Source: Pantoea cypripedii (GTDB lineage Bacteria > Pseudomonadota > Gammaproteobacteria > Enterobacterales > Enterobacteriaceae). From it: a stretch of 64,000 bases of DNA. Below the pieces are notes generated by a model that ran no database searches, was not told the origin of the DNA, and saw only the letters and a list, made by a program, of their open reading frames with translations. Every line of letters begins with the position of its first letter. Positions within the stretch are counted from its first letter, which is position 1. The DNA lies in contig NZ_MLJI01000002.1 of the NCBI RefSeq assembly GCF_002095535.1, positions 1,139,752 through 1,203,751 of the forward strand. The letters run 5' to 3'. Made by a program: the position numbers and the translations under genes. Below, one piece after another: positions 1 to 62,005 of this stretch.

Positions 1-534
1 GGAATGATGACGAACATCTGATGTTCAAAATTTATGAAATTCATGTTCTACTTTTTTGAATTAGCAGCCTTATTTTCCCTTTGTTGCCCATAAAAGCCGG
101 ATTCAATCGTGCCAAATGTGTTACCCACCGATAAGCATGCCATAGTATGAACAGACATCTTTCGCTCAAGTGCACATGAATGACTCAGAAAGGTGCTATT
201 AGCAGATTGAACGGGTAACAGAGATAATTGATTAAGGGAATAGAATGTAGACCTAGCTAGCTAGCAATAATAATAGCGCGAACTCTCTGTGTCTTTTTAA
301 TGATGAAAAAGCATCTGACGGTAAAAATTATTTTTTAATGGGAAGCGCGATACCAGTACATAATTAGATGACATTCTTATCTCCGAAAGGATATCTGATT
401 AGGGATTGGGGTCGGAAGAAATTTATCAATCTGTGACAGGGATGGAATTGTTAAATGTGTAATATAAAATTTGCATCACAGTGAATTGGGCGTTTTCTTA
501 AATGAATTTTCGTGTTATGTCTGTGTGGAAAAAA
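1..534. other. Non-coding stretch before the IS element
   Basis: I see no convincing gene here on either strand. The sequence is AT-rich with scattered stops. It is interrupted at 253-264 by the CTAGCTAGCTAG 12-mer described separately, so the pieces left and right of that point may not be natural neighbours. Confidence 0.6.
253..264. other. Six-frame stop 12-mer, probable contig linker (copy 1)
   Basis: The palindromic 12-mer CTAGCTAGCTAG holds a TAG in each of the three frames on both strands. CTAG is scarce in this window, yet this exact 12-mer occurs three times. Such six-frame stop linkers are used to concatenate contigs. That this is a linker is inference; no N run marks it. No gene is visibly cut here. 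Confidence 0.7.
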
Positions 535-638
535 GGTTGTTAGCGCCAGTGATATAAGACGGTAATTCACCATTAGCATTGTCCGCTCCACCCAACATGT
601 TGTTTCCTTAAGGTTCTCACACCAGAAAGGACATCAAC

Positions 639-1779
639 ATGCAGAGCAGAGAGGACTTTTACATGATAAAGCAAATGCGCCAGCAGGGTGCGTACATTGT
701 CGATATTGCGACTCAGGTGGGTTGCTCTGAACGGACTGTCAGACGCTATCTCAAATACCCTGAACCGCCAGCCAGAAAGACCCGCCACAAAATGGTTAAG
801 CTGAAACCATTTATGGATTACATCGACATGCGCCTGGCAGAGAATGTCTGGAATAGCGAGGTTATCCTCGCAGAGATAAAGGCAATGGGCTATATGGGCG
901 GGCGTTCCATGCTGCGTTACTACATCCAGCCCAAACGTAAAATGCGGACATCAAAAAGAACGGTCCGCTTTGAAACCCAGCCAGGGTATCAGCTCCAGCA
1001 CGACTGGGGCGAAGTCGAGGTGGAGGTTGCCGGGCAGCGGTGCAAAGTTAACTTCGCGGTTAATACGCTGGGGTTCTCCCGCCGCTTCCATGTCTTCGCC
1101 GCGCCAAAACAGGATGCTGAGCACACCTACGAGTCACTGGTTCGCGCCTTCCGCTACTTCGGTGGCAGTGTGAAAACGGTGCTGGTTGATAACCAGAAAG
1201 CCGCGGTGCTGAAGAATAACAACGGGAAAGTGGTGTTCAACTCCGGGTTCCTGTTGCTGGCCGACCACTATGACTTCCTGCCCCGGGCCTGCCGTCCGCG
1301 CAGGGCCAGAACCAAAGGCAAAGTTCTTCGTCCGGTACCGCAGGTTCGACAGCGTCACCCATGTAAACCAGCAACTGGAGCAGTGGATGGCTGATGTTGC
1401 TGATCAACGGGAGCTTCGCCAGTTCAGACAAACACCAGAGCAGCGCTTCGCGCTGGAACAGGAGCATCTGCAGCCGTTGCCGGATACGGACTTCGATACC
1501 AGCTACTTCGATATCCGCCATGTGTCCTGGGACAGCTATATCGAGGTTGGCGGCAATCGTTACAGTGTTCCCGAAACGCTGTGTGGTCAGCCGGTCTCGA
1601 TACGAATATCGCTGGATGATGAGTTGCGGATCTACAGTAATGAGCTACAGGTGGCATCACACCGCCTCTGTTCAGCATCATCAGGCTGGCAGACAGTGCC
1701 GGAACATCATGCCCCGCTCTGGCAACAGGTCAGCATGGTGGAGCATCGTCCACTGAGTGCGTATGAGGAGTTGCTGTAA
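639..1779 (+). pseudogene. istA: IS21-family transposase IstA, broken by internal deletion
   Basis: IstA is the DDE transposase of IS21 elements. The N-terminal part (639 to about 1328) shows a helix-turn-helix (VDIATQVGCSERTVRRYL), then the catalytic region with HDWGEVEVEV and LVDNQKAAV. The C-terminal part continues in another frame up to 1779 (from FVRYRRFDSV). The junction lies at about 1320-1332, right after RRARTKGK. In intact relatives this place reads KGKVER and carries the third catalytic acidic residue, so a deletion of roughly 30 bases seems to have removed that Glu and shifted the frame. The size of the deletion is inferred from memory of the family. The product should be inactive. 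Confidence 0.85.
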
Positions 1780-2540
1780 TGCATGAACTTGAAGCACTGC
1801 TGAGCCGCCTGAAAATGGAGCTGAGCTATCACGTTGAAAGCCTGCTGGAGCAGGCGGCTAAAAAAGAGCTGAACTACCGGGAGTTCCTGTGTATGGCGCT
1901 GCAGCAGGAATGGAACGGCAGGCATCAGCGTGGCATGGAGTCCCGGCTGAAACAGGCTCGTCTGCCGTGGGTCAAAACGCTGGAGCAGTTCGACTTTACC
2001 TTCCAGCCGGGCATCGATCGTAAAGTTGTCCGGGAGCTGGCCGGTCTGGCGTTCGTGGAACGCAGCGAAAACGTGATCCTGCTGGGACCTCCAGGCGTCG
2101 GAAAAACCCATCTGGCCGTTGCTCTCGGCGTGAAAGCGGCGGATGCAGGGCATCGGGTACTGTTCATGCCACTGGACAGGCTGATCGCAACGCTGATGAA
2201 AGCGAAACAGGAAAACCGACTGGAGCGTCAGCTACAGCAACTGAGTTATGCCCGGGTACTGATCCTGGATGAAATAGGCTATCTGCCAGTGACCAGAGAG
2301 GAAGCCAGCCTGTTCTTCCGGCTACTGAACCGTCGATATGAAAAAGCGAGCATTATCCTGACGTCAAACAAAGACTTCGCAGACTGGGGAGAGATGTTCG
2401 GAGATAACGTACTGGCAACGGCGATCCTGGATCGGCTGCTGCATCACTCAACCACGCTGAATATAAAAAGGAGAAAGTTACCGGTTAAAGGAGAAACGCA
2501 AAGCTGGAGTGCTGACCAAAAACGCAACGCCAATCAGTGA
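1779..2540 (+). CDS. istB: IS21-family helper ATPase IstB
   Basis: IstB is the DnaA/DnaC-like AAA+ ATPase that helps IstA choose and engage target DNA. The 253-residue protein has a Walker A motif (GPPGVGKTHLAVALG, around residue 104) and a Walker B region (RVLILDEIGYLPVT), followed by an LTSNKDF sensor-like stretch. The start ATG overlaps the istA stop (TAATG), which implies translational coupling. The length is normal for the family, so the gene looks intact although its partner is broken. Confidence 0.95.
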   Translation: MHELEALLSRLKMELSYHVESLLEQAAKKELNYREFLCMALQQEWNGRHQRGMESRLKQARLPWVKTLEQFDFTFQPGIDRKVVRELAGLAFVERSENVILLGPPGVGKTHLAVALGVKAADAGHRVLFMPLDRLIATLMKAKQENRLERQLQQLSYARVLILDEIGYLPVTREEASLFFRLLNRRYEKASIILTSNKDFADWGEMFGDNVLATAILDRLLHHSTTLNIKRRKLPVKGETQSWSADQKRNANQ

Positions 2541-2669
2541 CGATGAAATGGTGAAAAGCGGACAGCATCAGTAACGAAAGTATCTGGCGGGCATGAAAAT
2601 GGCAAATAACGGTCAAAGATCGTGGCGTTGAAAAGGTAGAATAAAATTTTGACTGGCAGGATGGAGTCT

Positions 2670-3596
2670 ATGGCTATTGCAGGGCACCTAATCAGCAACA
2701 ATCTTCCCAGCGTCAAACAGCTTCAGTGTTTTCTTGCCGTGGCGCATGAGCTGAACTTTCGCAGAGCGGCCGAACGGCTCAGAATGACCCAGCCTCCGCT
2801 AACCCGTCAGATCAAGTGTCTGGAAGCCGTTCTTGATCAGCAGCTGTTCAGCCGCAATACACATGATGTTAGTCTGACAGAAGCAGGCCGCTTGCTGGTA
2901 ATAAAAGCAGAGAAGCTCCTTCAGGTGCTCAGTGAACTGAAAACAGATTCACTTTCATCAGAAAAGAGCCTGCGCATCGGGCTTACCGGGACCCTCAATT
3001 TTGAACTGATCGAACCCGTTAACAGGCTGCTGGGTACGCTGGAGGCTGGTGACGATGTTGAAACACCGTATCTGACGTCTGCACAACTGCTTCGGAGCCT
3101 GTCGAAAAACACGTTTGACCTCGTGCTTACCGGGGAAAAGGGTATCGGCCATGAAGACATCGTTCAGTATCGCTGGGTCTGCCGCGAGCCTCTGCTGATG
3201 GCAATGCCGGCCATGCACCCTGCAAGCCTTAAAGATAAAGTATCGCTGGAAGACGTCAGTGACTTACCGCTCTTCTGGTTTGCAAGAAGCGCCAACCCGT
3301 CATTCTATGACAAATGTGAAAGCTATTTTGATTTGCTTAACTTCCCCCTTAAAAAGGTTAAAGAGCCGGATGACTCACTCGTCATGCTCACCCACATAGC
3401 GCGGGGAAAGGGATTTGCCCTGATGCCTCAGTCAAAATGTACGTTTAATCTGGAGGGGCTGTGCTACCGCGAGCTGGCAGACCGGGAATCTCAGAAGCTA
3501 AATATAGATATCTACGCCGCAACCCGCCTCAATGAAAAGCGGGAGGCCGTCCTGAATGCTCAGGAAGTGTTATGTAATAACGGTTTTTCTTATTGA
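2670..3596 (+). CDS. LysR-type transcriptional regulator
   Basis: The protein of about 308 residues begins with the winged helix-turn-helix typical of LysR regulators (FLAVAHELNFRRAAERLRM, then TQPPLTRQIKCLE). The rest fits the two-lobed inducer-binding domain. I chose ATG 2670 because GGATGGAG precedes it at good spacing; TTG 2649 and ATG 2661 are alternatives in the same frame. LysR proteins usually control a divergent neighbour, but the upstream side is occupied by the IS21 remnant, so the natural target may have been displaced. The ligand is unknown. Confidence 0.9.
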   Translation: MAIAGHLISNNLPSVKQLQCFLAVAHELNFRRAAERLRMTQPPLTRQIKCLEAVLDQQLFSRNTHDVSLTEAGRLLVIKAEKLLQVLSELKTDSLSSEKSLRIGLTGTLNFELIEPVNRLLGTLEAGDDVETPYLTSAQLLRSLSKNTFDLVLTGEKGIGHEDIVQYRWVCREPLLMAMPAMHPASLKDKVSLEDVSDLPLFWFARSANPSFYDKCESYFDLLNFPLKKVKEPDDSLVMLTHIARGKGFALMPQSKCTFNLEGLCYRELADRESQKLNIDIYAATRLNEKREAVLNAQEVLCNNGFSY

Positions 3597-3999
3597 AGAA
3601 TGTGTTGCTGCATGCCCCTTTTCAAAGACAGCCTCCGCCCTCTTGGCTGAGATTTTTCAAGTGCTTACTGCCACCACCACCTGTCAGAGGGCCGGCTCCG
3701 GTTAGAGGCCCCCATTATCTACATAGCGACTGTATTTTTCGTTTGTCTTTTTTCATTTTAGCTGGTTAGCTTTGAGGATTAATGCCTGATTCATGCTGCT
3801 CCACGCCCTTACTCTCTTTTCTGCTTTCTGTTTTTGTTGTATTTAGCACATATCGTGCTTGTTAAATCTGAGAGATCCGGAAAAAGGTAGAGTCGGAAAT
3901 ACGCCTCCGACTGACGGAACACGACTGGTGGTGACATTTTTGAATTGATTGCTTTAATCTTCCGGTTAAACCATAACTTTCTGGGCTGGCAGTTTATTT
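3597..3999. other. Intergenic stretch without a supported gene
   Basis: About 400 bases between the LysR gene and the next reading frame. I find no open frame with a plausible ribosome binding site. CTGACGG and TCGGAAATACGCCTCCGACTG contain a short inverted repeat (TCGGA/TCCGA near 3892-3911) that could be a hairpin, but nothing decisive. Confidence 0.5.
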
Positions 4000-4326
4000 A
4001 TGAGAATACAGGTTAGGGAGTTTGCGTCGGATAAGAACCCCCTGCGCTATCTGGTCAGCGTTGATAAGCCGGGAGGACTACAGAGTGAGTACGTTGTCGA
4101 ATTCAAGGGAGGAGCTGTTCTTGTCCCCTATCTGGACAGTTACTACACCGAGGCAGAACTGAGCGAGAACACCTTGATGGTGGATTTTTTTGATATTCAG
4201 GCTCTCTATTCAATCAGTGGCCTTCAGAAATTTGAACGGTACACCGATATGCATTACGACGAGGAAGAGCTTGAAAGACTTTTTGTTGAGGGCATCGCTG
4301 TAGCCATTTTAGATCTAGCTAGCTAG
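4000..4326 (+). pseudogene. Hypothetical protein, truncated at the stop 12-mer
   Basis: An open frame of 108 codons begins MRIQVREFASDK and is rich in acidic and aromatic residues toward its end (YTDMHYDEEELERLF). I do not recognise the family. The last residues (LAS, stop) are encoded by the CTAGCTAGCTAG sequence, so the natural C-terminus is missing. No clear Shine-Dalgarno is seen before the ATG (GGGCTGGCAG is the nearest purine-rich run). Confidence 0.6.
4315..4326. other. Six-frame stop 12-mer, probable contig linker (copy 2)
   Basis: Identical to the 12-mer at 253 and 16185. It supplies the stop codon of the reading frame that starts at 4000, and sequence style changes directly after it. 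Taken with the other copies, an artificial join is the simplest explanation. Confidence 0.75.
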
Positions 4327-4453
4327 AGCAACCATCGTGTTCGCCGCTCCCTATAAGGAGACGCTGGCGCGCTACTACCATCGACTGTTGAAGAAATATG
4401 CGGCTAATGTAAACTATACATATAGAGAAGACATTCGAGAGGAGGTAAATTTT

Positions 4454-4660
4454 ATGTACTCGAAACCGACAAACGGTAAAGTTACGCGTCTTACTCCGCG
4501 TCTGCTTACCTCTCAGGAAATGTCACGCAATCAGTCAATTCATGAGGCTCTGAGGGCAGAGCTCGTTACCGAACTGAAGCAGACAGGTACGCTTGGTCGC
4601 AAGGGACGTATAGTCACGACTTCTGAGTCAAGACTGAAAGCACGATTAGTCCGTTCCTAA
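4454..4660 (+). CDS. Small hypothetical protein
   Basis: A 68-residue basic protein (MYSKPTNGKVTRLTPRLL at the start, KARLVRS at the end). The ATG at 4454 follows a strong GAGGAGG ribosome binding site at 4438-4444. The same frame is open upstream back to the stop 12-mer at 4315, so it could instead be the tail of a longer truncated protein (KETLARYYHRLLKKYAANV lies upstream in frame). I favour the start at 4454 because of the binding site. Function unknown. Confidence 0.5.
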   Translation: MYSKPTNGKVTRLTPRLLTSQEMSRNQSIHEALRAELVTELKQTGTLGRKGRIVTTSESRLKARLVRS

Positions 4661-4680
4661 GCAGTCCAGCATATTAACCA

Positions 4681-4707
4681 CTGAGACCAGTATTAAGCTG
4701 GTCTCAG
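4681..4707 (+). terminator. Hairpin, possible terminator
   Basis: A perfect 10-base stem CTGAGACCAG / CTGGTCTCAG with a seven-base loop lies 20 bases after the gene ending at 4660. A run of T does not follow it on the plus strand (TCTAAAAAAG follows), so it is a hairpin with only weak support as an intrinsic terminator. Confidence 0.4.
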
Positions 4708-4788
4708 TCTAAAAAAGTCCTGCGCTGCCCCAGTCAACGTATATCTTTCCCGGTACATTCTTAAATTACTGAGAATGGCCTGAGGCGC

Positions 4789-6162
4789 TCATCTTTTCAG
4801 GGACTTGCTGTCTAAGCTGCGAAACAGAAACCAGGAAGGGTGGCGGGTGATTTCCCTGTGATTACGGTACGCCCCCTGGGTTGCCTGGAGAAGACTGATC
4901 GCACCGGTGGCCAGTGTGGAAACTGCCGGGGCTCCCGTGTACCCCAGAACGGCAGGTAAGGTGAGCAGGGCTGTATCCAGCATGCTCTGCCGTTTCCAGG
5001 CGCTCAGTTTCTGTCGCAGATCCTCCAGTCCCTCATCGGCAATACGCTCCCGGAAACGCAGCTGCAGCAGGCGGATTGCATCGGCACCGGACGCCTGCTC
5101 CATTTCCAGAGCCGCGTCGCGCAACGAGCGTCTGAACGCAGTCACACTCGGCTCGTAATCTGTGCGGATCCGGAAGATGTCCCCGAGCGACAGGTTCTGC
5201 AGAAACGGAATGTCAACCTCCAGCATCCGGCGAGAGAGTCGCCCCGGCGCATCAAGCTTCGCCAGTATTTTTCCCTGAAGCGGACATCGTGTGACCAGTG
5301 ATGCGCCAGTCTGTGCTGACTGGCTGAGATCGGTCAGAAGGCCACGGTAATGAAAATAGATGCTCCGGTTCATGGCCCCGCGCACCCATCTGTCATACCC
5401 TTTACGGCTTTCGTGTTTCCCGCCGGTGATCCTTACTGTGAACGTTCCGTCTTCATTTACCTGGATCGGCTGTAGCTCCTGGTAAATATAGGCATTTGTG
5501 AATGGACTGAGGCAGTCCCGCAGTTCCAGCATAATTTCACCCGGCAGGGTTTTACCTGATACAAAACGATAATGCCCTTCGTCGCTGACCCGCCTTATGC
5601 CCCGTACGGTGAGACTGCGCTCGTAGAGCTGAACCACTGCCGGAGGCATCACACCGTTAAGGAAATGCCGATCGGGATTATCCTGCAGGAGCTGCATCCT
5701 GCGCTGCTGATCCTGCCTTGCTGATTCACAGGGCGTGAAGGCAATAAACCCGGCCCGGATCAGCAGAAAATTATCCTTAGCAAAACGGATGAACTGTGCC
5801 ACGCCGGTCTTGATATCTGCCAGTCTGTCGGTATCACGCTTCTGTACCAGAAGGTCAGTGGCGGAGGCCATCTCCACGCTGTCCAGCCGTAACGCCGCCT
5901 CTTCCAAGGCATCGGTCAGTATAATGCGTTCGGCAGACAGTAATCCCGGGCGGTACAGTGCCAACTGATCGTGGCGGGCGATCCACAGGCTGAGTGGCGA
6001 CGCTTCCGGGGCATGCCACTCACCCCGAAGCACTTTAACCGCCTGAAGATAATTCTCCAGGGCACCCCGTAGCGCATCCTCATTCAGCGCAGCATAATCG
6101 GCTGACAGAAGCCTTTCATCCCAGAGAATGCTTTCCGTCAGGGCTGGCAGGTTATTGTACAT
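4789..6162 (-). CDS. Large hypothetical protein, second gene of a two-gene module
   Basis: A 457-residue protein I cannot assign to a family. It starts MYNNLPALTESILWDERL and appears mostly helical and charged. Residues about 395-425 (LDTALLTLPAVLGYTGAPAV and ISLLQ) are the only markedly hydrophobic segment and could touch a membrane. No catalytic motif is obvious. It begins 10 bases after the stop of the ribbon-helix-helix gene at 6173 and is surely co-transcribed with it. A function together with that protein is inferred from context; no toxin, nuclease or helicase signature is visible. Confidence 0.8.
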   Translation of the reverse strand: MYNNLPALTESILWDERLLSADYAALNEDALRGALENYLQAVKVLRGEWHAPEASPLSLWIARHDQLALYRPGLLSAERIILTDALEEAALRLDSVEMASATDLLVQKRDTDRLADIKTGVAQFIRFAKDNFLLIRAGFIAFTPCESARQDQQRRMQLLQDNPDRHFLNGVMPPAVVQLYERSLTVRGIRRVSDEGHYRFVSGKTLPGEIMLELRDCLSPFTNAYIYQELQPIQVNEDGTFTVRITGGKHESRKGYDRWVRGAMNRSIYFHYRGLLTDLSQSAQTGASLVTRCPLQGKILAKLDAPGRLSRRMLEVDIPFLQNLSLGDIFRIRTDYEPSVTAFRRSLRDAALEMEQASGADAIRLLQLRFRERIADEGLEDLRQKLSAWKRQSMLDTALLTLPAVLGYTGAPAVSTLATGAISLLQATQGAYRNHREITRHPSWFLFRSLDSKSLKR

Positions 6163-6172
6163 ATGTGTCTCC

Positions 6173-7258
6173 TCACAGATCCCCGTACAGGGCGCGAAGC
6201 TCTGCCAATACCGGTGCCGTGTCAGGCGTGGCCACCACCGTCAATAGAGCCGCCTCCAGCTGCAGGTATTCGTCCAGCGTCATGGCGATGTGGGTTCCGT
6301 CCAGACCCAGTATCACACTTTCCCCTTCGCCACGGGGGATATACAGCGACACCAGGCTGTCCCGGGCGTTCCACTCGTGCGTGGCTCCCAGCCACGCACG
6401 GGCCTGCATATAGCGAACCAGCGCACTGAACACGTCCCAGCCCAGAGCGAGTGACACCCGGCCGGCGCTCACGAACAGGCTGAATGCCGGTGCCTGCCAC
6501 GCGGTACCTGGCAGTTGCGGATAGCGGTTGCCCCGGACCTGCAGATGCAGACAGATGTCCGACACCGTTGCCGTCCGGCTGAGATCATCCGTCACCAATC
6601 CGGTTGCTGCCGCCCACCCTTGCATCGTGTTCTGGTCCAGGTTCTGCGCCCGAATGACCAGCGGGAAGATGAGTTTCAGTCGTGCCGGCGTGCAGATCCG
6701 CGACAGCACTTCATCCGGAAAGGCCGCGAGGTTCAGCGCGCCGGAAGAGAGGGGGCGCAGCAGGAATTCAGCCCAGCCCGAGTCCACGTTATGCGGCATG
6801 GCCGCCATGAACCTTTCCGTCTCTTCCCGGTAGTTCTGCCCGGTGAGATCAAAGGCCCGGTTGATGTAGGGCGTGTCCACGGCAATTCCGTTTTCCGAGG
6901 CGTGAACCAGCGCCCCGAAGGTGATGTTCAGCAGCGCCTCCATGACCGGCCAGCTCATGAACGCACTGCCGGTCTGGCAGGCGGCATGTGCCCGGGTAAA
7001 CAGCCAGCGCAGCTCTGCGGTTTTCAGGGACTGACGCCCGAAGGTTTCTCCCCGGATCACCTTCCGGTAGAGTGACTCCAGTGTTCCACCGGGATCGGCC
7101 TGCAGGGCAAAATAGGCGTCATCGGGTGAGGTGGTCCTGAGCGCGCCATCGAGGAGTTTTTCGGTCAGGGCGTTTACCGAGGTGTCTTCCGCAGAGGCGC
7201 GGGACTTGAGACCCTCAATCAGTTTTTTCGGGAACCGTAATGTCAGCTGGCTAAGCAT
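6173..7258 (-). CDS. Protein with N-terminal ribbon-helix-helix-like segment, first gene of a two-gene module
   Basis: A 361-residue protein. Residues 1-40 (LTLRFPKKLIEGLKSRASAE then DTSVNALTEKLLDGAL) look like a ribbon-helix-helix DNA-binding domain of the Arc/MetJ type. The remaining 320 residues are of unknown family and contain no motif I recognise. The following gene starts only 10 bases downstream. A palindrome around 7334-7354 sits about 75 bases before the start codon and is a credible operator for self-repression. Fusion of a short repressor domain to a long body is unusual, since such domains usually stand alone. Confidence 0.8.
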   Translation of the reverse strand: MLSQLTLRFPKKLIEGLKSRASAEDTSVNALTEKLLDGALRTTSPDDAYFALQADPGGTLESLYRKVIRGETFGRQSLKTAELRWLFTRAHAACQTGSAFMSWPVMEALLNITFGALVHASENGIAVDTPYINRAFDLTGQNYREETERFMAAMPHNVDSGWAEFLLRPLSSGALNLAAFPDEVLSRICTPARLKLIFPLVIRAQNLDQNTMQGWAAATGLVTDDLSRTATVSDICLHLQVRGNRYPQLPGTAWQAPAFSLFVSAGRVSLALGWDVFSALVRYMQARAWLGATHEWNARDSLVSLYIPRGEGESVILGLDGTHIAMTLDEYLQLEAALLTVVATPDTAPVLAELRALYGDL

Positions 7259-7333
7259 GATGCTGTTTTCTCGCAGATGGTAATTATTATGAATAAGAAT
7301 GCATCAATAAAAATAATTTTGCACTCAAATATT

Positions 7334-7354
7334 ATAATGACATGATGTCATTAT
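7334..7354 (-). promoter_or_regulatory. Palindromic operator candidate upstream of the two-gene module
   Basis: Two ten-base arms, ATAATGACAT and ATGTCATTAT, are perfect inverted repeats around a central G. The site lies in AT-rich DNA 75-95 bases upstream of the start codon at 7258, where a promoter is expected. Ribbon-helix-helix proteins bind such palindromes as dimers of dimers, so it fits autoregulation by the product of the gene at 6173. Confidence 0.6.
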
Positions 7355-7727
7355 TAAGTGACGAATGTGCCGTTTCCCTTTTCTCCGCACTGAAGATCCG
7401 AAAACTCCCGGTTCCGGATCTTCTTCAGATGCACCGGCGCGCAGCGGCGCAGAAACACAATATGTGCCACGCTGTCAGATGTATATTCTTCAACATGTTG
7501 TGTTTATCCCTCGCTCCGTGACCGCACGCCCACCACCGGAAAAGGGCGCTTTGCTTATTCCGTGTGCGTGGTACACTTCCGGAAACTGTGAAATAACAGA
7601 AAAACCGGATCAATCCGTGACCGGCTTCCGGTAATTTAATTCTGTGGCTATACCCATGCTTATTATCAGGTGGGTGATTATCACTAAGTGCGATAATGCG
7701 AAAGGAAAGGATGGCGTCAGGGGGCTA
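7355..7727. other. Intergenic stretch
   Basis: About 370 bases between the divergent module and the next plus-strand gene. Short open frames exist (for example 7365-7634) but lack a ribosome binding site and read like random sequence. TATAATTCTG-like promoter elements for the following gene could not be fixed. Confidence 0.4.
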
Positions 7728-8081
7728 ATGATTTCAGAGCGGGACTATTTAACTGCACACATTGATATTCTATTGGGAGATAAAGTGGAAGCGGACGAAC
7801 TAATTGATGTCCTGATTGCAGACGAATATACCCACGCGTGGATTTACTGGGCAGATCTTCCAACAGACGATGATGATACCTGGATGACAGAACGGCTGAT
7901 TCTGGATGCAGATGGAAACATCATTGCTCGCCAGATTTGTCCGCCATTATGTTATGGCTGGTCTCAAGTAACCTGGTCGCTGAGGCCCCCCTTATTCCCG
8001 ATACCCAACAACGTCATGGAGCTCGATCTTAATGACAGAGACGAAGCCATCAGTACGGTTTTGTTTTTCGGGAACATATGA
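7728..8081 (+). CDS. Hypothetical acidic protein
   Basis: A protein of 117 residues starting MISERDYLTAHIDILLGDKV. It is acidic and aspartate-rich (LPTDDDDTWMTERL) with several tryptophans. I do not recognise it. A longer in-frame start exists at 7644 (GTG), but the sequence before 7728 reads poorly as protein. AGGGGGCT lies six bases before the ATG. Confidence 0.55.
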   Translation: MISERDYLTAHIDILLGDKVEADELIDVLIADEYTHAWIYWADLPTDDDDTWMTERLILDADGNIIARQICPPLCYGWSQVTWSLRPPLFPIPNNVMELDLNDRDEAISTVLFFGNI

Positions 8082-8120
8082 AAACGGGTGGCGGGATTTC
8101 TCATCAATAAAGGAACAACT

Positions 8121-8825
8121 ATGGCTGACTGGTTTATTGCCACTGAAGGGGTGAAAGTCGTGAAGGACAGCGCCAGCCTGTGGCCACAGATCATCACGGC
8201 GGTTTCCTCCGCCGGCGCTGCGCTTATTGGTGTGTGGTACGGGCAGTGGCTGATTACCCGGAGGGAAGCAAAAACAGCAGCAGCCAAAAAAGACAGTGAA
8301 CGTCTGTTTATTACCACCGAACTGGTTTTTATCCTCGAAGAATTTGCTGAGGGCTGTGCCCGCGCGGCAACCGACACCGGACATGCTGATAACGAGGGCA
8401 TATTGAGAGTCTCAGCAGAGCGCCCTGACATTGATTTGACGCAGGTTGCCGGCGACTGGCGTGTCCTTCCCGCTGCATTGATGTACCGTATCCGTGAACT
8501 TCCGATTCTCGTGAATGAAGCGGATAAATATGTTGCCAGTGTCTGGGAGCATGACTGGCCACCGGATTATTCACGCACGTTCGAAGAGAGGCAGTACCGG
8601 TATGCCCGGGCAGGACTGAAAGCTCTCTTCTCTGCAATACGTCTGCGAAGGCTGGTCGGCCTCCCCGGTACGCGCCTTAATGCCACGCCCTGGTCTGCAC
8701 AGCCTAAGCTGTGGAATGCCTGGAAGGAGGAGTGCAGACGTCGTTCAGTGACCAGCAGGCCGGCGCCAGAATTGGCCGTCCTTTCAAATATCCAGAGTCA
8801 GCCCCCTTCCGGAGAGCAGATATGA
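8121..8825 (+). CDS. Hypothetical membrane-anchored protein
   Basis: A 234-residue protein with one membrane segment near the N-terminus (IITAVSSAGAALIGVWYGQW, about residues 21-40) followed by a basic, cytoplasmic-looking region. The start at 8121 follows AAAGGAACAACT; an in-frame start at 8088 is weaker. Its last codons overlap the start of resD at 8822, which suggests the two are co-transcribed. No known domain is visible. Confidence 0.7.
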   Translation: MADWFIATEGVKVVKDSASLWPQIITAVSSAGAALIGVWYGQWLITRREAKTAAAKKDSERLFITTELVFILEEFAEGCARAATDTGHADNEGILRVSAERPDIDLTQVAGDWRVLPAALMYRIRELPILVNEADKYVASVWEHDWPPDYSRTFEERQYRYARAGLKALFSAIRLRRLVGLPGTRLNATPWSAQPKLWNAWKEECRRRSVTSRPAPELAVLSNIQSQPPSGEQI

Positions 8826-9595
8826 CATTTACGGCCGTACCCGCGCAACACACACCGGTTTCACTCCCGGTATCCATCGACTATCCGGCTGCGCTGGCGC
8901 TGCGCCAGATGGCTCTGGTGCATGATGAGCTGCCGAAATACCTGCTTGCACCGGAGGTGAGCGCCCTGCTCCACTATGTCCCGGATCTGCACCGCAGGAT
9001 GCTGCTGGCCACACTCTGGAATACCGGCGCCCGCATCAACGAAGCGCTGGCCCTGACGCGGGGGGATTTTTCACTGGCGCCGCCGTACCCGTTCGTGCAG
9101 CTGGCCACGCTGAAACAGCGCGCGGAAAAAGCCGCCAGAACGGCCGGCCGTGCGCCGGCCGGCAGTCAGGCGCACCGTCTGGTTCCGCTGTCCGACAGCC
9201 AGTACGTCAGCCAGCTGGAGATGATGGTGGCCACCCTGAAAATTCCGCTGGAAAGGAAAAACAGACGCACCGGCAGGACGGAAAAGGCCCGTCTGTGGGA
9301 GATCACCGACCGGACGGCACGGACGTGGATCAATGAAGCCGTGGTCGCCGCTGCGGCCGATGGCGTCAGGTTCTCGGTGCCGGTGACGCCGCACACCTTC
9401 CGCCACTCCTATGCCATGCACATGCTGTACGCCGGGATTCCGCTCAAGGTACTGCAGAGCCTGATGGGGCATAAAAGTATCAGCTCGACAGAAGTGTACA
9501 CGAAGGTGTTTGCGCTCGATGTCGCCGCGCGGCACCGGGTACAGTTCCAGATGCCCGGCGCGGAGGCCGTGGCCCTGCTGAAAGGTCACTTATAG
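8822..9595 (+). CDS. resD: ResD-like site-specific tyrosine recombinase
   Basis: A 257-residue tyrosine recombinase. The catalytic residues are visible: the first Arg in NTGARINEALALTRG, H-x-x-R in PHTFRHSYAMHML, His in SLMGHKSISS and the nucleophile Tyr in STEVYTKV. The sequence closely resembles the resolvase D of the F plasmid, which resolves plasmid multimers at rfsF and so supports stable inheritance. Its place near the partition genes fits that role. I did not locate an rfsF-like site. The ATG at 8822 overlaps the preceding gene. Confidence 0.9.
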   Translation: MTFTAVPAQHTPVSLPVSIDYPAALALRQMALVHDELPKYLLAPEVSALLHYVPDLHRRMLLATLWNTGARINEALALTRGDFSLAPPYPFVQLATLKQRAEKAARTAGRAPAGSQAHRLVPLSDSQYVSQLEMMVATLKIPLERKNRRTGRTEKARLWEITDRTARTWINEAVVAAAADGVRFSVPVTPHTFRHSYAMHMLYAGIPLKVLQSLMGHKSISSTEVYTKVFALDVAARHRVQFQMPGAEAVALLKGHL

Positions 9596-9863
9596 TGTCT
9601 GTAGTTGGCCGAACATTATTCGATTACATATGGACATAATTACCTGAACGTTCAGGCTGGCGTGGTTTTTAGCTGTAATGACTCTGTTTGAGCTGAAAGT
9701 GGTTCAGATTGGTCATGGTATGGCGATATTTGGTCCCATATTTCTGAAAACTGGTTCAAGTGGCATAATAATCAGAAAGTTCACTATGAAGGATAGTTTG
9801 AAGCAAAAAGTTGGAATGTGCGGGCGAACATCCTGCTCGCCAGATTTATTTTATGCGGGGTTC

Positions 9864-10121
9864 TTACCTGGCCCACTCACGCGGAATACAGAAGTGAAAA
9901 TCAGGAAACTCTTCATAAATAGCGTTCTGTAGCATTCTTACCCGTTCTGACAGTCTGCGTGAATCAGACATATGCCGCCACTCGCCCTCGATCGAATTTT
10001 TGTCAGCATCAGGGAAATTCAACGTGATATAGACTTTACCATCACGAAAAATGGCACCATTTGTAAATGTACCTAAACCCTCATTAACTACATTATTTAT
10101 CTGATTTTCATCAAGTTTCAT
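9864..10121 (-). CDS. 85-residue hypothetical protein, copy 1 of a duplicated pair
   Basis: A small protein starting MKLDENQINNVVNEGLGTF and ending FHFCIPREWAR. It is about three quarters identical to the protein at 15027-15284, and the DNA downstream of both (around 9820-9863 and 14975-15026) is also similar. GAGAGG lies before the ATG at 10121; the longer frame back to 10241 has no such site. Family unknown. The two copies bracket the partition and SOS genes. Confidence 0.7.
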   Translation of the reverse strand: MKLDENQINNVVNEGLGTFTNGAIFRDGKVYITLNFPDADKNSIEGEWRHMSDSRRLSERVRMLQNAIYEEFPDFHFCIPREWAR

Positions 10122-10448
10122 AATCTTGCATCCTCTCATTTGACTAGACATCTGATCATACCAGTGACCAGTATTTACTGAAACTGAGAATGAAAAAACG
10201 ATTGTTGGTATCTGACAATTCATCACTACCAGTTGCTGCACGGGGATTAACAGTCCCCGTGTTTATTCAAGTCACCACTTCTTTCTGATGCCATCCACAC
10301 AGTAGCTGTTTGTGAAATTCCTGCGGTGTATTCAATCACCTCAATAGCCATGTACACAGCTCCATCAACTTATACCGCTACAGCGTGGCAACAAAACTGA
10401 CCGTAGATGGTTGTTGCTATCGCGCCTCTCTGTATTTTTTACGCACAA

Positions 10449-10526
10449 CTTTGCAATTTTACATTCACTTTGCAATTTTGGTGTTGCTTTGCATTATTTT
10501 TCAAGATTTAATGTTTTTATGCAAAG
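10449..10526 (+). promoter_or_regulatory. SopA-binding boxes in the sopAB promoter
   Basis: Three direct copies of CTTTGC (10449-10454, 10468-10473, 10487-10492) spaced 19 bases apart and one inverted copy, GCAAAG (10521-10526), precede sopA. In F plasmid, SopA represses its own promoter by binding CTTTGC repeats. The arrangement here strongly suggests the same autoregulation. Confidence 0.8.
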
Positions 10527-10543
10527 TTAACTATTTGGGGTGA

Positions 10544-11713
10544 ATGATGGGATTGATGGACACGCTTGACCAATGCATTAAGGCCGGACATGAAATGACC
10601 AGAGCTATAGCCATAGCTCAGTTCAATGATGATAGTCCGGAAGCGCGAAGGATTACCCGTCGATGGAGAGTAGGAGAAGCGGCAGATTTAATTGGTGTCT
10701 CGTCTCAGGCAATAAGAGACGCTGAAAAGGCAGGCCGTCTTCCACATCCGGATATGGAAACAAGAGGACGAGTAGAGCAACGCGCTGGCTATACGATCGA
10801 ACAAATCAATCATATGCGGGATGTTTTTGGTACCCGCTTACGACGCCCTAAGGATGCTTTACCGCCGGTCGTTGGTGTCGCTGCTCATAAAGGTGGGGTA
10901 TATAAAACGTCAGTATCTGTGCATCTGGCTCAGGACCTCGCTTTAAAAGGATTGCGGGTACTACTTGTAGAAGGAAACGACCCCCAGGGGACGGCGTCGA
11001 TGTATCATGGATGGGTACCTGACCTGCATATCCATGCGCAAGACACACTTCTTCCTTTTTATCTGGGTGAAAAAGACGACGCCAGCTATGCGATAAAACC
11101 GACTTGCTGGCCTGGACTTGACATTATTCCGTCTTGTCTTGCTCTGCACCGCATTGAAACAGAGTTGATGGGTAAATTCGATGAAGGAAAATTACCAACA
11201 GAGCCGCATTTGATGTTGCGTCTGGCTATTGAGACTGTGGCCCATGATTACGATGTCATTATCATCGACAGTGCACCAAATCTCGGTATTGGCACCATCA
11301 ACGTTGTATGTGCTGCTGATGTTCTGATCGTCCCGACTCCAGCAGAGTTGTTCGATTATACGTCTGCCCTGCAATTTTTTGACATGCTGCGCGATCTGAT
11401 GAAAAACGTTGATCTTCAGGGTTTTGAACCTGATGTCAGAATTCTGCTTACCAAGTACAGTAACAATAATGGATCACAGTCACCCTGGATGGAAGAGCAG
11501 ATCCGCGATGCTTGGGGAAGTATGGTTCTCAAAAATGTTGTACGTGAGACCGATGAAGTCGGTAAAGGGCAAATACGCATGAGAACTGTATTTGAGCAAG
11601 CGATTGATCAGCGCTCTTCAACAGGAGCATGGAGAAATGCCCTTTCAATATGGGACGCAGTATGTAATGAAATTTTTGACCGTCTCATAAAACCTCGCTG
11701 GGAGATTAAGTAA
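10544..11713 (+). CDS. sopA: Plasmid partition ATPase SopA (ParA, type Ia)
   Basis: A 389-residue protein very close to F plasmid SopA. The N-terminal helix-turn-helix region ([20 protein letters not shown]) binds the operator. The ATPase core shows the deviant Walker [19 protein letters not shown], a Walker A' region ([13 protein letters not shown]) and Walker B ([14 protein letters not shown]). SopA forms dynamic ATP-dependent structures on the nucleoid that move SopB-bound plasmids apart. The start can be ATG 10544 or 10547. The gene overlaps sopB by one base (TAATG), so the two are translated together. Confidence 0.97.
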
Positions 11714-12687
11714 TGAAACGGGCTCCAGTCATTCCCAAAACTTCTGTCAAAACGACCGCAAATGTTTCCGAACAGGCTACCACTGGACCCGCAGCACCGA
11801 TGGTTGACTCGTTAATTACACGGGTCGGTGCTATGACCAGAGGAAATTCTATTAGTCTTCCAGTATGTGGGCGCGATGTTAAATTTATCCTTGAATGTAT
11901 TTCAGGTGATAAAGTTGCGGAGCTTTCTAAAGTATGGGGCGGCAATGAGCGTGATCAGGAACTTCTTACAGAAGAAGCGCTCGATGATTTAATACCCTCC
12001 TTTTTGCTTTCTGGTCAGCAGACACCAGCGTTTGGTCGGAAAGTCTCAGGCCATATTGAAGTTGCCGATGGTAGCCGTCGTAGAATGGCTGCAATCCTGA
12101 CATCCAGCGACTACCGTGTGCTTGTAGGTGATCTGGATGACGAGCAAATGATGGCACTTTCCCGGCTCGGAAATGACTATCGCCCTACCAGTGCATTTGA
12201 GAGAGGCAAACGCTACATATCTCGTCTCGAAAATGAGTTTTCTGGAAATATTTCTGCTCTATCAGATGCAGAAACTATCTCACGTAAGATTATTACTCGT
12301 TGCATTAATACAGCAAAATTACCTAAATCCCTGATGTCTATTTTTGCTCATCCAGGTGAACTCTCGGCAAGGGCGGGAGATAGTTTATATAAATCATTTT
12401 CTGATAAAGAGCAGTTGTTACAGGAGTCGATTGAAAATTTGCGCGCCAGAAAAAAAATGGGGGCAATCTTCGAATCTGAAGAGATTATTGAGTTCTTAAT
12501 GTCGGTTTTGAAAGATAAGTCGAATACTCAATCTCCACAGACTTCGCGCCATCAATATGCTCCTGGAGCTACCGCTTTATATAAAGGACAGAAAATTATA
12601 TTGAATCTCGACAAAGATAAACTCCCCGCTAAGTTGATTCAGAAAATTGAGGAGATTTTAAAAGGGTTGGAAAAGAATGGCGAATAA
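11713..12687 (+). CDS. sopB: Centromere-binding partition protein SopB (ParB)
   Basis: A 324-residue ParB-family protein like F SopB. A ParB N-terminal nucleotide-binding motif is visible ([12 protein letters not shown]), then the helix-turn-helix region ([17 protein letters not shown]) and a C-terminal dimerisation part. SopB binds the sopC repeats just downstream and stimulates SopA. Length agrees with the F protein (323 residues). It is expressed from the sopA promoter through the overlapping start. Confidence 0.96.
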
Positions 12688-12700
12688 AGGGTTCCTCTAC

Positions 12701-12903
12701 TGGAACCATGGTCCCATCTGCCACCTGATATCAAAATAAGGAGTGGTGGGACCGTGGTCCCACCTGCTAACCAGATACCAAAATCGTACGTGCTGGGACC
12801 GTGGTCCCACCTGTCAACCTGATACCAAAATCGTACGTGCTGGGACCGTGGTCCCACCTGCCAACCTGATACCAAAATCGTATATGCTGGGACCATGGTC
12901 CCA
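12701..12903 (+). repeat. sopC-type centromere, five 47-bp repeats
   Basis: Five copies of the palindrome TGGGACCRTGGTCCCA lie at 12701, 12747, 12794, 12841 and 12888, so the spacing is 46-47 bases. Copy 1 has one mismatch (TGGAACC). The DNA between them is also repeated (CCAACCTGATACCAAAATCG). In F, sopC has twelve 43-bp repeats with the same SopB-binding inverted repeat, so this centromere is shorter in copy number and longer in period. Confidence 0.93.
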
Positions 12904-12941
12904 CAGGCCAACCTGACTACAAATCACATAAGCACAGCAAG

Positions 12942-14222
12942 TCAGTATACGCGGGCTACAGGAATATCAGTCCAGCGGGTTGTATAGGCCGGCGATAACA
13001 TATTCCGCTTCATCTGCCACCCCGTGTTCATACCCTGCCCCGCAAACCCGATGTTACCCAGCCCGGACTGGTTGATGCCATCAATTGCTCTCATCAGTTT
13101 TGCACTGTCCGGCCGTGGGCGCTCCTCGCTGAACAAACTCAGCTGACTGATGCCATGCGGGATAAAGTCATCCAGCATGATCCCAGCCTTCATGTAGCGG
13201 TGTCCCTCTTTCCAGATACGGTCCAGCGAGCGCATGGCCACTGCGATGATGTCCCGGGTATCCTGTGTGGCCAGCGCCAGTTTTTCGCCGGCGCTGTTTC
13301 CGTAGAAGATTTCATTCACCGCGTGGGGGAAGTGCGGATGAACACGCTGACGTGCCGGCAGAACTGCCGTTCACCACGTAGTTTCTCTGCCGCCCGGGTG
13401 GCATACTGGCACAGTGCCTGCTGCATGGACGTCTTCGTGGTGATGCGTTCCCCGAAGGAACGGCTGCAGACTATCTGCTGCTTTGATGGCGGTAATTCTT
13501 CCAGCGGAATGCAGGACTCACCATTCAGTTCGCGTACCGTTCTCTCGAGGACAACTGAAAAGTTTTTGCGGACAAACGACGGATGAGTGCGCGCCAGCTG
13601 CAGGGCCGTTTCGATACCCATCGTGTTCAGCTTTTTCCCGATACGGCGCCCGACGCCCCAGATCTCCTCCACTGGCTGACGGGCAAGCAGGGCTTCCGTT
13701 CTTTTCGGATTGCCCGGTGTCAGCGCCAGTACGCCCCGGAACTGTGGCCACTCTTTCGATGCCCATTGGGCACTTTTAGCAAGCGTTTTGGTTGGCCCCA
13801 TGCCCACTCCGATCGTCAGACCAGTCGTGTTCAGTACATGTTCACGCAGGCGCTGGCCGAAGTGCTCAAAATCCTCACAGCCGTCAATGCCGGTCAGGTC
13901 CAGGAACATCTCGTCAATGCTGTACTGCTCCACTTTCGGCGTCATTTCTTCCAGGGCGGTCATCACTCTCACGGAGATCGAATGATACAGCCCGTAATTT
14001 GAACTGAAGGCGTACACTTTCTCAGGAAAATCAGTGTGTTTCATCTGGAACCACGGGACTCCCATTCGTATGGCCGATTTTTTTTGCGGCTGCGCTGCGG
14101 GCAATAACGCAGGAATCGTTGTTACTGAGCACTACTACAGGTTTACCCCGGAGGTCGGGACGAAAAAGAGCCTCGCAGCTGGCATAGAAGGAGTTAACGT
14201 CTGCCAAACCAAACATGGGCAT
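12942..14222 (-). pseudogene. umuC: UmuC-like translesion polymerase subunit, two frameshifts
   Basis: Read right to left, the coding sequence begins at 14222 (MPMFGLADVNSFYASCEALF), shifts frame near 14065-14075 beside a run of eight T, continues from IRMGVPWFQMKHTDFPEKVY to about 13328, shifts again at a C run (top strand GGGGG near 13324-13328), and ends at 12942. All Y-family landmarks are present: the DVNSFYASCE metal site, QYSIDEMFLDLTG and the thumb/little-finger region. With both shifts corrected the protein would be about 424 residues, normal for UmuC, MucB, ImpB or SamB. Both shifts sit at or beside homopolymers, so sequencing error is a real alternative to gene decay. Confidence 0.88.
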
Positions 14223-14224
14223 GG

Positions 14225-14650
14225 TTACCTCCTGCGTGCACGCGTGCTGTTGAAAAACCAGGTGACGACGCCGAACAACTGCAGCGACTCCGGATAAATG
14301 GTCGCATAGTCCGGATTCATCGGCAGCAAGGCGAGGCGAGGCTGCAGTTGCAGGCGTTTGACCGTGAATTCACCGTTCACCTCGGCGATGACGATGTCGC
14401 CGTGCGAGGCCTCTTCGGCCCGGTCTACAATCATGATATCCCCATCAAACAGGCCCAGATCCTGCATGCTGCTGCCGCTGGCCCGCACGAAAAAAGTGGC
14501 GGCCGGGTGACGAATACAAAGCTCATTGAGATCCAGTTCGCTCTCAATATAGTCCTGGGCCGGGCTGGGAAAACCGGCAGGACAAAGATCGCTGAACAGT
14601 GGAATGGCAGATAACTTAGGGCTGGATGCCGGGGTAAGAATTTTTAACAT
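14225..14650 (-). CDS. umuD: UmuD-like SOS mutagenesis protein
   Basis: A 141-residue LexA-like self-cleaving protein. The cleavage site is Ala25-Gly26 ([11 protein letters not shown]). The catalytic serine is Ser61 in ASGSSMQD and the lysine is Lys98 in FTVKRL. RecA filaments trigger its cleavage, after which two shortened copies join UmuC to form polymerase V. The stop lies three bases before the umuC start, as in umuDC, mucAB, impAB and samAB operons. A LexA box lies just upstream. Confidence 0.92.
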
Positions 14651-15026
14651 GTAGACCTCAATAATGCTGTATATGCAAACAGTATTATTTCTTGGTTTTC
14701 ACATGTTTCAAGCCCAATCTTTGCTTCGCTCTCTAATGAGTTGAAAAACCGCCATAAATAATTCGGAGTTAGTAACCGCAGGTAGTGGACTTTTTTTCCG
14801 GGGAGCGGGAAGGGGAGTCGGTGACGGCTGTGGTGCGGGCACAAGATATGATGTGCCGGTCAGCTGCGGTCGATACCAGATGTTGATTATCCACAGAAAC
14901 GGGGGATAACAATGTGGGTAAGGGGCAGAATTATCTGAGTATCTAACGGGAAGGGTAATATGCAGGATAGAAGCAGGTTTGTACGGGCGAACGTCCTGCT
15001 CGCCGGATTTACTTTATGAGGTGCCA
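14651..15026. other. Intergenic region with a DnaA-box match
   Basis: About 375 bases between umuD and the next gene. Apart from the LexA box, the only clear site is TTATCCACA at 14887-14895, a perfect DnaA box. No iterons or initiator gene adjoin it, so it may be a relic of an origin or a coincidence. The last 50 bases are shared with the region after the gene at 9864. Confidence 0.5.
14667..14682 (-). promoter_or_regulatory. LexA box (SOS operator) of umuDC
   Basis: CTGTATATGCAAACAG matches the LexA consensus CTGT-N8-ACAG exactly in its arms. It sits 17 bases upstream of the umuD start codon, the usual position for tight SOS repression. Confidence 0.88.
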
Positions 15027-15284
15027 CTACCTGGCCCATTCGCGCGGAATACAGAAGTGAAAATCGGAAAACTCTTCATAAATAATGTTCTGTAGCATCT
15101 TCACCCGTTCGAACAGAGTGCGTGAATCAGACATATGCCGCCACTCGCCCTCGATAGACTCTTTTTCACCATCCGGGAAATTCAGCGTGATATAAACTTT
15201 ACTATCACGAAAAATCACACCGTTTGTAAATACACTCAAACTGTCACTGACCAATTGCTGTATCTCATTTTCATTAAGTTTCAT
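15027..15284 (-). CDS. 85-residue hypothetical protein, copy 2 of a duplicated pair
   Basis: The protein begins MKLNENEIQQLVSDSLSVF and ends FHFCIPREWAR. It shares length, ends and most of its middle (FRDSKVYITLNFPDG, IEGEWRHMSDSR) with the gene at 9864-10121. AGGAG lies at proper distance before the ATG at 15284. The family is unknown to me; its presence twice on one plasmid suggests either a duplication of a useful gene or the two ends of a moved segment. Confidence 0.7.
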   Translation of the reverse strand: MKLNENEIQQLVSDSLSVFTNGVIFRDSKVYITLNFPDGEKESIEGEWRHMSDSRTLFERVKMLQNIIYEEFSDFHFCIPREWAR

Positions 15285-15638
15285 ACCATTACAGCCTCTC
15301 CTTTACTGGATATCTGATCATACCAGCGACTTGGTCTGGCTGAAAAGGATGTCGCTTCGCTCCGCTGATTTGTTATCTGAGACTTTCCCCGGATGCAATA
15401 ACCAGAATTCTGTCGGTCTCCTTATTCACTGTGCCGTGAGCTAACTTTAGCCGGGCCGCATCGTGTTCAAGGGAAGCGATGCCGTTCAGTCACCCGTTCG
15501 CACACGTTGTGGCGCATTCAGCCCACAACGTGCTTGCGCTGCGGCTTCCTGTCACGCCCTTGTCCCCTCCGCTTTTCGCCCGTCTGCGTTTTGCTCACGG
15601 CACAACACCGTGCCGCATCTGTGAATGAGGAGACGCTC
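15285..15638 (+). promoter_or_regulatory. Non-coding leading-region block, possible single-strand promoter
   Basis: This 350-base block holds no gene. Its second half contains an inverted repeat (CACGTTGTGG near 15511 and CCACAACGTG near 15530) and the words CCCGTTCGCAC and CTTGCGCTGCGGC, followed by TC, a short gap and ACGCCC. The same words recur in the same order at about 17708-17765, again directly before a leading-region gene. In F, structured single-strand promoters (Frpo/ssi) precede leading-region genes; a similar role here is inference. Confidence 0.4.
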
Positions 15639-16196
15639 ATGCCGAACTGGTGTGCAAACCGGTTATATTTCCGCGGTCAGTCTGACCGTATTGATGATAT
15701 TCGCCGTCTGCTGGAAGGACAGATAGTCCCCTGGTATCGCCGCGCACAGAGGGAAGGGATCCAGTTATTTCTGGCGGGATGCGCCGGTATTTTACAACCC
15801 CCGGAGACCGTAGCGTTTTCACTGTACCCGTCTCTTACGGCCAGCGGCAGCGGCATTATGTCCCCGGAAGGAATGGCTTATGCCCGCTGGCTCAGAATGT
15901 TACAGGACGGTGTAATGCTGGATATGGATAACAGCCAGCTGTTGCATGAACTTTGGCTGGCCTGCGGTATTCAGGAACGTCGATGGCAGACCCTGACAGA
16001 GGCGCAAAAAACAGTGATTGAAGCGCTGTACCGGCAGAAGATCCATGACTGGGGATCGCTCTTGCGACGGAAGAGTATGGCTGAGTGGTGGGACGGCCTG
16101 TGTGATGGTGGGGATGAGGAAAGGACTGAGGAACTGGATATGCTGCTGATCCTTCCAACCCGGCTGGACGTAGAAATCAATGGCCTAGCTAGCTAG
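15639..16196 (+). pseudogene. yubB: YubB-like leading-region protein, truncated
   Basis: The 185 visible residues begin MPNWCANRLYFRGQSDRIDD and match the N-terminal part of the YubB/DUF1281 proteins carried in the leading regions of F-like plasmids, which are about 300 residues long from memory. The reading frame ends with Leu-Ala-Ser-stop encoded by the CTAGCTAGCTAG 12-mer, directly after the conserved PTRLDVEINGL. GAGGAGA precedes the ATG at 15639. The truncation is therefore at the probable contig join and may be artificial. The function of YubB is not known. Confidence 0.8.
16185..16196. other. Six-frame stop 12-mer, probable contig linker (copy 3)
   Basis: Third exact copy of CTAGCTAGCTAG. 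Left of it yubB is cut in mid-domain; right of it lies the apparent tail of another gene. This is the strongest case that the 12-mer marks an artificial join. Confidence 0.82.
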
Positions 16197-16268
16197 CGGC
16201 CCATGCCATTCCGTCTGTGGCCGCAGTTTATGCAGTGCGTACATACCCTGATGGAGGCAAAAGCATGA
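16197..16268 (+). pseudogene. C-terminal remnant of a truncated gene
   Basis: Directly after the 12-mer one frame reads RPMPFRLWPQFMQCVHTLME, then AKA and stop. Its TGA overlaps the ATG of the next gene (ATGA at 16265), a typical operon junction, which suggests a real gene end whose beginning is missing. Too short to identify. Confidence 0.4.
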
Positions 16269-16831
16269 GTACGGGAATCCTTCAGAATGCAGCATCAGCG
16301 CTGACGCCGGTCACCCAGGCCGATATCACCCGCGTGATGCGTGAATACTGCTTTATCCGCCTCGATAACGGCGATGAGGCGTTTTTTCATAACGGCCACT
16401 GGCTGGACGGCGCTGACGCCGCCAGCGGCGAACCTTCTGTTCTTGGCCTGGCACAGCGTGCGGCGCGGGCAGGGGGAAAATTCCTGCACTGCATGGAGCT
16501 GCCGGTGCCGGAGGGGGAGTGGTGCTGGAGCGACGTCGCGGAGCAGCTGGCGCGCAGCGCCGTCACGCTGAGCGTGCGCATGGAGCCTGTCGTCACCGGC
16601 TGTGAAACACGGCAGGGCCGGGGCGTGCACTTCTGTAGTGACCCGCTGCTGAGCGGCATCAACAGCAACCTGTGGTTTCCGGTGCGCCCGGATGAGGACT
16701 GGTTTACGGGGATTGAGCAGATTCTGGTGATGAACGGCGTGGCGGAGAACGTGGTCAGCCTGACGCCATTGCAGGACAGCCCGTCATATACCGACTGGAA
16801 AGTTATCTGTAACCGGAAAATTATCGCCTGA
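16265..16831 (+). CDS. Conserved leading-region hypothetical protein
   Basis: A 188-residue acidic protein starting MSTGILQNAASALTPVTQAD. GATGGAGG lies before the ATG, and the start overlaps the stop of the truncated upstream frame. No motif points to a function. Position in the leading region suggests a role early after entry into the recipient, but this is only context. Confidence 0.65.
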   Translation: MSTGILQNAASALTPVTQADITRVMREYCFIRLDNGDEAFFHNGHWLDGADAASGEPSVLGLAQRAARAGGKFLHCMELPVPEGEWCWSDVAEQLARSAVTLSVRMEPVVTGCETRQGRGVHFCSDPLLSGINSNLWFPVRPDEDWFTGIEQILVMNGVAENVVSLTPLQDSPSYTDWKVICNRKIIA

Positions 16832-60838: not shown

Positions 60839-61019
60839 AAAAGTTCCCGCATGTATGAAATCACAAGACAGAACGAGGTTCCTGCTTTCATGCTCAGTGA
60901 CAAGAAACCTATTGACTGTCCATCAAATTGAGATGCTTCAACTGATTAAAAGGGGGCATAAAAGCGGACGGCTCTTCATTCGCATACATTGAGGAACTTT
61001 TCATGTAAGCAGGAACCTT
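60839..61019 (+). repeat. Iterons downstream of the RepFIB-like gene
   Basis: Four matches to the iteron CATGNAAGCAGGAACYTT: two inverted (60839-60855 and 60878-60894) and two direct (60983-61000 and 61002-61019). RepFIB also carries iterons beyond the rep gene, where they help control copy number by binding initiator. Confidence 0.75.
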
Positions 61020-61957: not shown

Positions 61958-62005
61958 TTTTATAAAATCCACAAAAGTAGGTCATGTGAGTATTGCAAAA
62001 CTTGT

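Follow-up and report, generated by a model that had tools for sequence, protein, structure and literature searches.

A repeated six-frame stop 12-mer as a probable separator between concatenated contigs in a Pantoea cypripedii genome record

The window analyzed here, a stretch of 64,000 nucleotides, corresponds to C2:1139752-1203751 of an assembly of 6,553,825 bases (6.55 Mb) that is deposited as three records (C1, C2 and C3). Three copies of the 12-mer CTAGCTAGCTAG, located at positions 253-264, 4315-4326 and 16185-16196 and without further copies in the window, part it into four segments, which we regard as contigs A to D. Contig A (C2:992796-1140003; 147,208 bp) contributes only its right end (window positions 1-252). 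Contig B (265-4314; 4,050 bp) holds an IS21-type element, recognizable by its IstB_IS21 and rve domains and by IS21 matches in plasmids; its istA region (639-1756) contains ORFs of 251 and 120 amino acids, and istA is annotated in the matching plasmids. According to Pfam matches and annotated relatives, contig C (4327-16184; 11,858 bp) carries genes for an integrase, a ParA-type (SopA-like) protein, SopB and umuD/umuC-type proteins, followed by a cut DUF1281 (YubB-type) gene. The umuC-type gene of this contig (12942-14104) is represented by two ORFs of 262 and 125 amino acids, compared with one ORF of 426 amino acids in contig D, and is either a pseudogene or the product of a sequencing error; a direct repeat of about 380 bp with 81% identity is found at positions 9788-10168 and 14950-15330. 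The remaining 47.8 kb of the window (16197-64000) constitute the first part of contig D (C2:1155948-1228635; 72,688 bp), an F-type conjugative plasmid.

The 12-mer reads identically on both strands and, as judged by inspection, carries TAG in all six reading frames. The initial annotation of this DNA considered its threefold occurrence to be beyond chance, and indeed none of 100 dinucleotide shuffles of the window contains it. The accompanying remark that CTAG is otherwise rare holds as well, given that nine of the 12 CTAG tetramers in the window lie within the three 12-mers and only three outside, while about 138 would be expected from the shuffles. The entire assembly harbors 56 identical copies (20 in C1, 34 in C2 and two in C3), and the pattern read backwards occurs nowhere in it. 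CTAGCTAG is found exactly 112 times, i.e., two times per 12-mer (2 x 56); hence, there is neither a stray copy outside the 12-mers nor a longer tract. The flanks of the 56 sites are unrelated to each other: each of the 40 flanking columns contains at most 0.11 bit of information, the CTAG tract is never extended by the flank, and a genome-wide search for a conserved flank or for partial copies of the 12-mer returned none. Target-site duplications were sought at the 56 sites as well; equal flanking 4-, 5- and 6-mers are present at none of them (0/56), an equal 3-mer at one, and a single equal 8-mer was detected (1/56).

The identical 12-mer is known from published genome assembly practice. Five reports (PMC5399434, PMC4195474, PMC3464603, PMC3082526 and PMC5383966) place CTAGCTAGCTAG between concatenated contigs and name the stops that it provides in six frames; PMC4475827 describes the same placement and terms the sequence a linker only. 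These six reports deal with organisms other than the one considered here. In PMC2793016, the same 12-mer serves as a stop tag for gene prediction on both extremities of each contig, and thus as a contig-end tag rather than as a separator. A literature search for a publication on the present genome found none; its depositor would, we infer, have followed the published recipe. The 56 copies in the genome, the published practice, and the true contig neighbors traced below lead us to view the 12-mer, with a probability of about 0.98, as an artificial separator between contigs and not as a natural feature. Fifty-nine assembly contigs would have been concatenated into the three records with CTAGCTAGCTAG placed between neighbors, and the TAG codons in its six frames would keep gene-finding programs from calling genes across the joins. 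The proposal of the initial annotation that the 12-mers are probable artificial joins is borne out by these same three lines of evidence. In this capacity, the 12-mer reflects an ordinary, documented way of handling assemblies and, as an artefact, carries no biological information itself.

A natural dispersed element, that is, a short palindromic repeat or a protein-binding site scattered in the genome, is a highly improbable explanation, although a palindromic 12-mer that is identical at 56 places is what one would anticipate for it. Its natural occurrence is possible, as 16 of the 394 genomes in a sample of the order contain CTAGCTAGCTAG, with one to six copies in 15 of the 393 genomes other than that of the window, and naturally occurring CTAG repeats are described in PMC6735867 for the nod regions of Frankia. 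However, the sites lack conserved flanks, CTAGCTAG never occurs outside the 12-mer, the copies cut genes and adjoin rRNA operons, and none of the other 39 genomes in a search among 40 relatives carries the 12-mer. In a sample of 398 genomes from the phylum, six possess it, five of the 397 others with one copy each. The maximum in any other genome over the three surveys is therefore six copies, as compared with 56 in the assembly containing the window, and counting CTAGCTAGCTAG provides a simple screen for records that have been concatenated in such a way.

The second spacer (4315-4326) cuts a gene whose left part is found at positions 4000-4326 of the plus strand; as the initial annotation had noticed, the stop codon of this ORF lies within the 12-mer. 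When positions 3915-4714 were compared with plasmid records, all eight matching records proved collinear and continued in one piece through 4315. The 12-mer is absent from all eight, a finding that also speaks against a natural element; about 17 bp separate the positions that correspond to the two contig ends. Each of these plasmids has one annotated coding sequence of 152-163 amino acids across the place at which the window contains two shortened ORFs. From this collinearity and from the single coding sequence, contigs B and C are probably true neighbors between which a few bases have been lost, and a separator thus need not mark a false join. In a sample of 60 genomes from the genus, 23 of the 59 other genomes match contig B, all of them within positions 2700-3587, and, as a point against this adjacency, among the matches listed none crosses 4315; the adjacency of B and C therefore rests on plasmids of other genera. 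A homopolymer at window positions 4400-4460 differs by one base in length from two aligned plasmids, which may suggest homopolymer-prone sequencing.

At the third spacer (16185-16196), the initial annotation correctly recognized a YubB-type gene that ends in mid-domain. The N-terminal part of this DUF1281 gene, approximately residues 1-194, occupies positions 15639-16184 of the plus strand and is cut at the end of contig C; the ORF containing it (15507-16196) derives its stop codon from the 12-mer. The DUF1281 match of the cut gene ends at profile position 154 of 177 and a DUF1281_C match is missing, whereas a full copy of the gene in the same assembly matches both DUF1281 and DUF1281_C. Residues from about position 212 onward find a match (49-57% identity to two query proteins) at C2:1391963-1392293 on the minus strand, at the right terminus of a further segment, contig F (C2:1382706-1392298). 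This displaced half of the gene lies 236 kb from the cut gene and in reversed orientation. When contig F is read in reverse, the DUF1281 part is followed by genes for a DNA methylase, an antirestriction protein, ArdA and PsiB, an arrangement resembling the order DUF1281, methyltransferase and antirestriction gene in plasmid pPAT9B05 of Pantoea sp. At-9b. Because of the DUF1281 remainder at the terminus of F and of this gene order, contig C is most likely followed by reversed F and not by D. Matches to positions 15585-16784 were obtained in 3,088 plasmid records, none of which covers 80% of this segment in one place. Judged from these sequence comparisons, the join between C and D at 16185 is false.

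Contig D itself appears to form a circular molecule of 72,642 bp. The first 46 bases of the contig (16197-16242) are identical to its last 46, and the matches of its head and tail are contiguous, with the same offset, in two plasmids of Pantoea sp. At-9b, pPAT9B05 (NC_014842) and pPAT9B02 (NC_014839); it is the exact terminal repeat together with this contiguity across the closure point that argues for circularity. The tra region of both plasmids is like that of contig D, as the first 13.8 kb of D match their annotated tra region at the DNA level with 82-96% identity. Contig D differs in size from both, since it would close at 72,642 bp, while pPAT9B05 comprises 116,877 bp and pPAT9B02 394,054 bp. 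The gene tail to the right of the third 12-mer, to which the initial annotation had drawn attention, is that of a small ORF (16197-16268, plus strand) whose head is present from C2:1228512 onward; if D is circular, the tail belongs to the ORF that starts at the other end of the contig. In pPAT9B05, no stop codon interrupts this small ORF where D closes; the open stretch in pPAT9B02 comprises only 39 codons. The view that the window consists of joined segments with missing pieces stands in general; it does not apply to D, which appears to be a closed circle and not a fragment lacking its flanks. In a search for a replication initiator, a Rep3_N match at positions 61019-61972 scored 20.9 bits as compared with a cut-off of 22.4. 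Two further ORFs of contig D (locus L049, 2629-7468) are perhaps phage-defence genes; one, of 893 amino acids, matches SMC_N/AAA_21, and the other, of 318 amino acids, matches Abi_2.

The initial annotation had named ssb and psiAB as examples of genes missing on account of the joins, and one ssb and two psiB matches are indeed located on other segments of the same record. Five matches to the ssb profile PF00436 were obtained in the assembly, one of them in C2 (at C2:1377448, on contig E), and two to the PsiB profile PF06290, on contigs E and F; neither search returned a match within contig D. Since D appears to be closed, the absence of ssb and psiB from it is probably real. The psiB gene on contig F lies on what is apparently the continuation of contig C beyond the cut DUF1281 gene. 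It is fairly likely that the joins conceal a second plasmid related to F, complete or in part, which coexists with the 72.6-kb plasmid D. Its contigs would include B, C and reversed F, and it would possess SopA/SopB-type partition genes, its own umuDC-type genes, the DUF1281 gene, a DNA methylase, antirestriction genes and psiB. Such a second plasmid, if truly present, would be nothing new in kind.

The first spacer (253-264), like the others one of the 56 copies in the assembly, stands between contigs A and B. The last 20 bases of A are identical to the first 20 bases of contig E (C2:1357652-1382693), which is located 218 kb away. The last bases of A match a site in record C3 of another genome (G006) and another near 410 kb in C2 of the window's own assembly, and the first 85 bases of E have matches at the same two places with 71-72% identity. 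By their coordinates, the A and E matches meet at both places with the same overlap; a direct comparison with these two stretches did not recover the start of E. A search for records with A next to B gave one match, which covers 31% of the query and lies within B only, and a further comparison for the true left neighbor of B, which was not found, gave one 24-bp match. We hold with moderate confidence that the A-B join at 253 is probably false; that A and E are true neighbors is suggested with moderate to low confidence by their shared ends and is the weakest of the proposed links.

Taken across the three joins, the contig order that we infer is A-E, B-C-F (with F reversed), and D as a circle. 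That the separators represent scaffold gaps only, with the order of the record being right throughout, agrees with the situation at 4315 and is nevertheless extremely improbable, because the recorded order is false at 16185 and probably false at 253. The warning of the initial annotation that the segment order cannot be trusted is hence justified at 16185 and probably at 253, but order and orientation appear correct at 4315. Six-frame stop oligonucleotides serve in mutagenesis and the copies do interrupt genes, but the probability of mobile-element scars or of a stop linker introduced by laboratory mutagenesis is negligible in view of the equal flanking 5- or 6-mers at 0/56 sites and the equal 8-mer at only one, the replacement of about 17 bp at 4315 by the 12-mer instead of its addition, the linear insert with perfect 46-bp ends that D would become, and the remainder of the DUF1281 gene, which would not sit 236 kb off. 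On the basis of the flanks, the CTAGCTAG count and the plasmids at 4315, we reject the readings of the 12-mer as a natural repeat or binding site, as an insertion scar and as a product of stop-linker mutagenesis.

With the 12-mer understood as an artificial separator, the window combines at least two replicons, and the assembly, which looks like three long replicons, consists of 59 pieces. Gene order across the 12-mers should therefore not be taken as biology, and conclusions on synteny, gene truncation, gene loss and replicon size drawn from this record may be wrong. The SopAB segment, for instance, is falsely fused to the tra region, the YubB-type gene is seemingly truncated, psiB is placed far from the gene upstream of it, and fragments of 16S and 23S genes stand side by side.

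A scan of the segment ends of the assembly for overlaps of at least 12 bases found seven, one of which is trivial (a 328-bp segment with itself). Five controls with shifted ends gave 14 overlaps in sum: five with the presumed rRNA contig, eight of segments about 1 kb long with themselves, and one of 13 bp. Many of the joins coincide with repeats, at which assemblies break. For eight of the 20 joins in C1, a 5S rRNA gene is found no more than 0.5 kb away (19 loci covering all 20 joins were inspected), and two of these eight put a 16S beside a 23S fragment, so that rRNA operons are incomplete in the record. Short segments are found in a run at the end of C2, as if unplaced contigs had been appended there. 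The last segment of C2 (5,420 bp) has overlaps of 122-143 bp, consisting of 16S-leader sequence, with four segment ends of C1 and would represent a collapsed rRNA operon.
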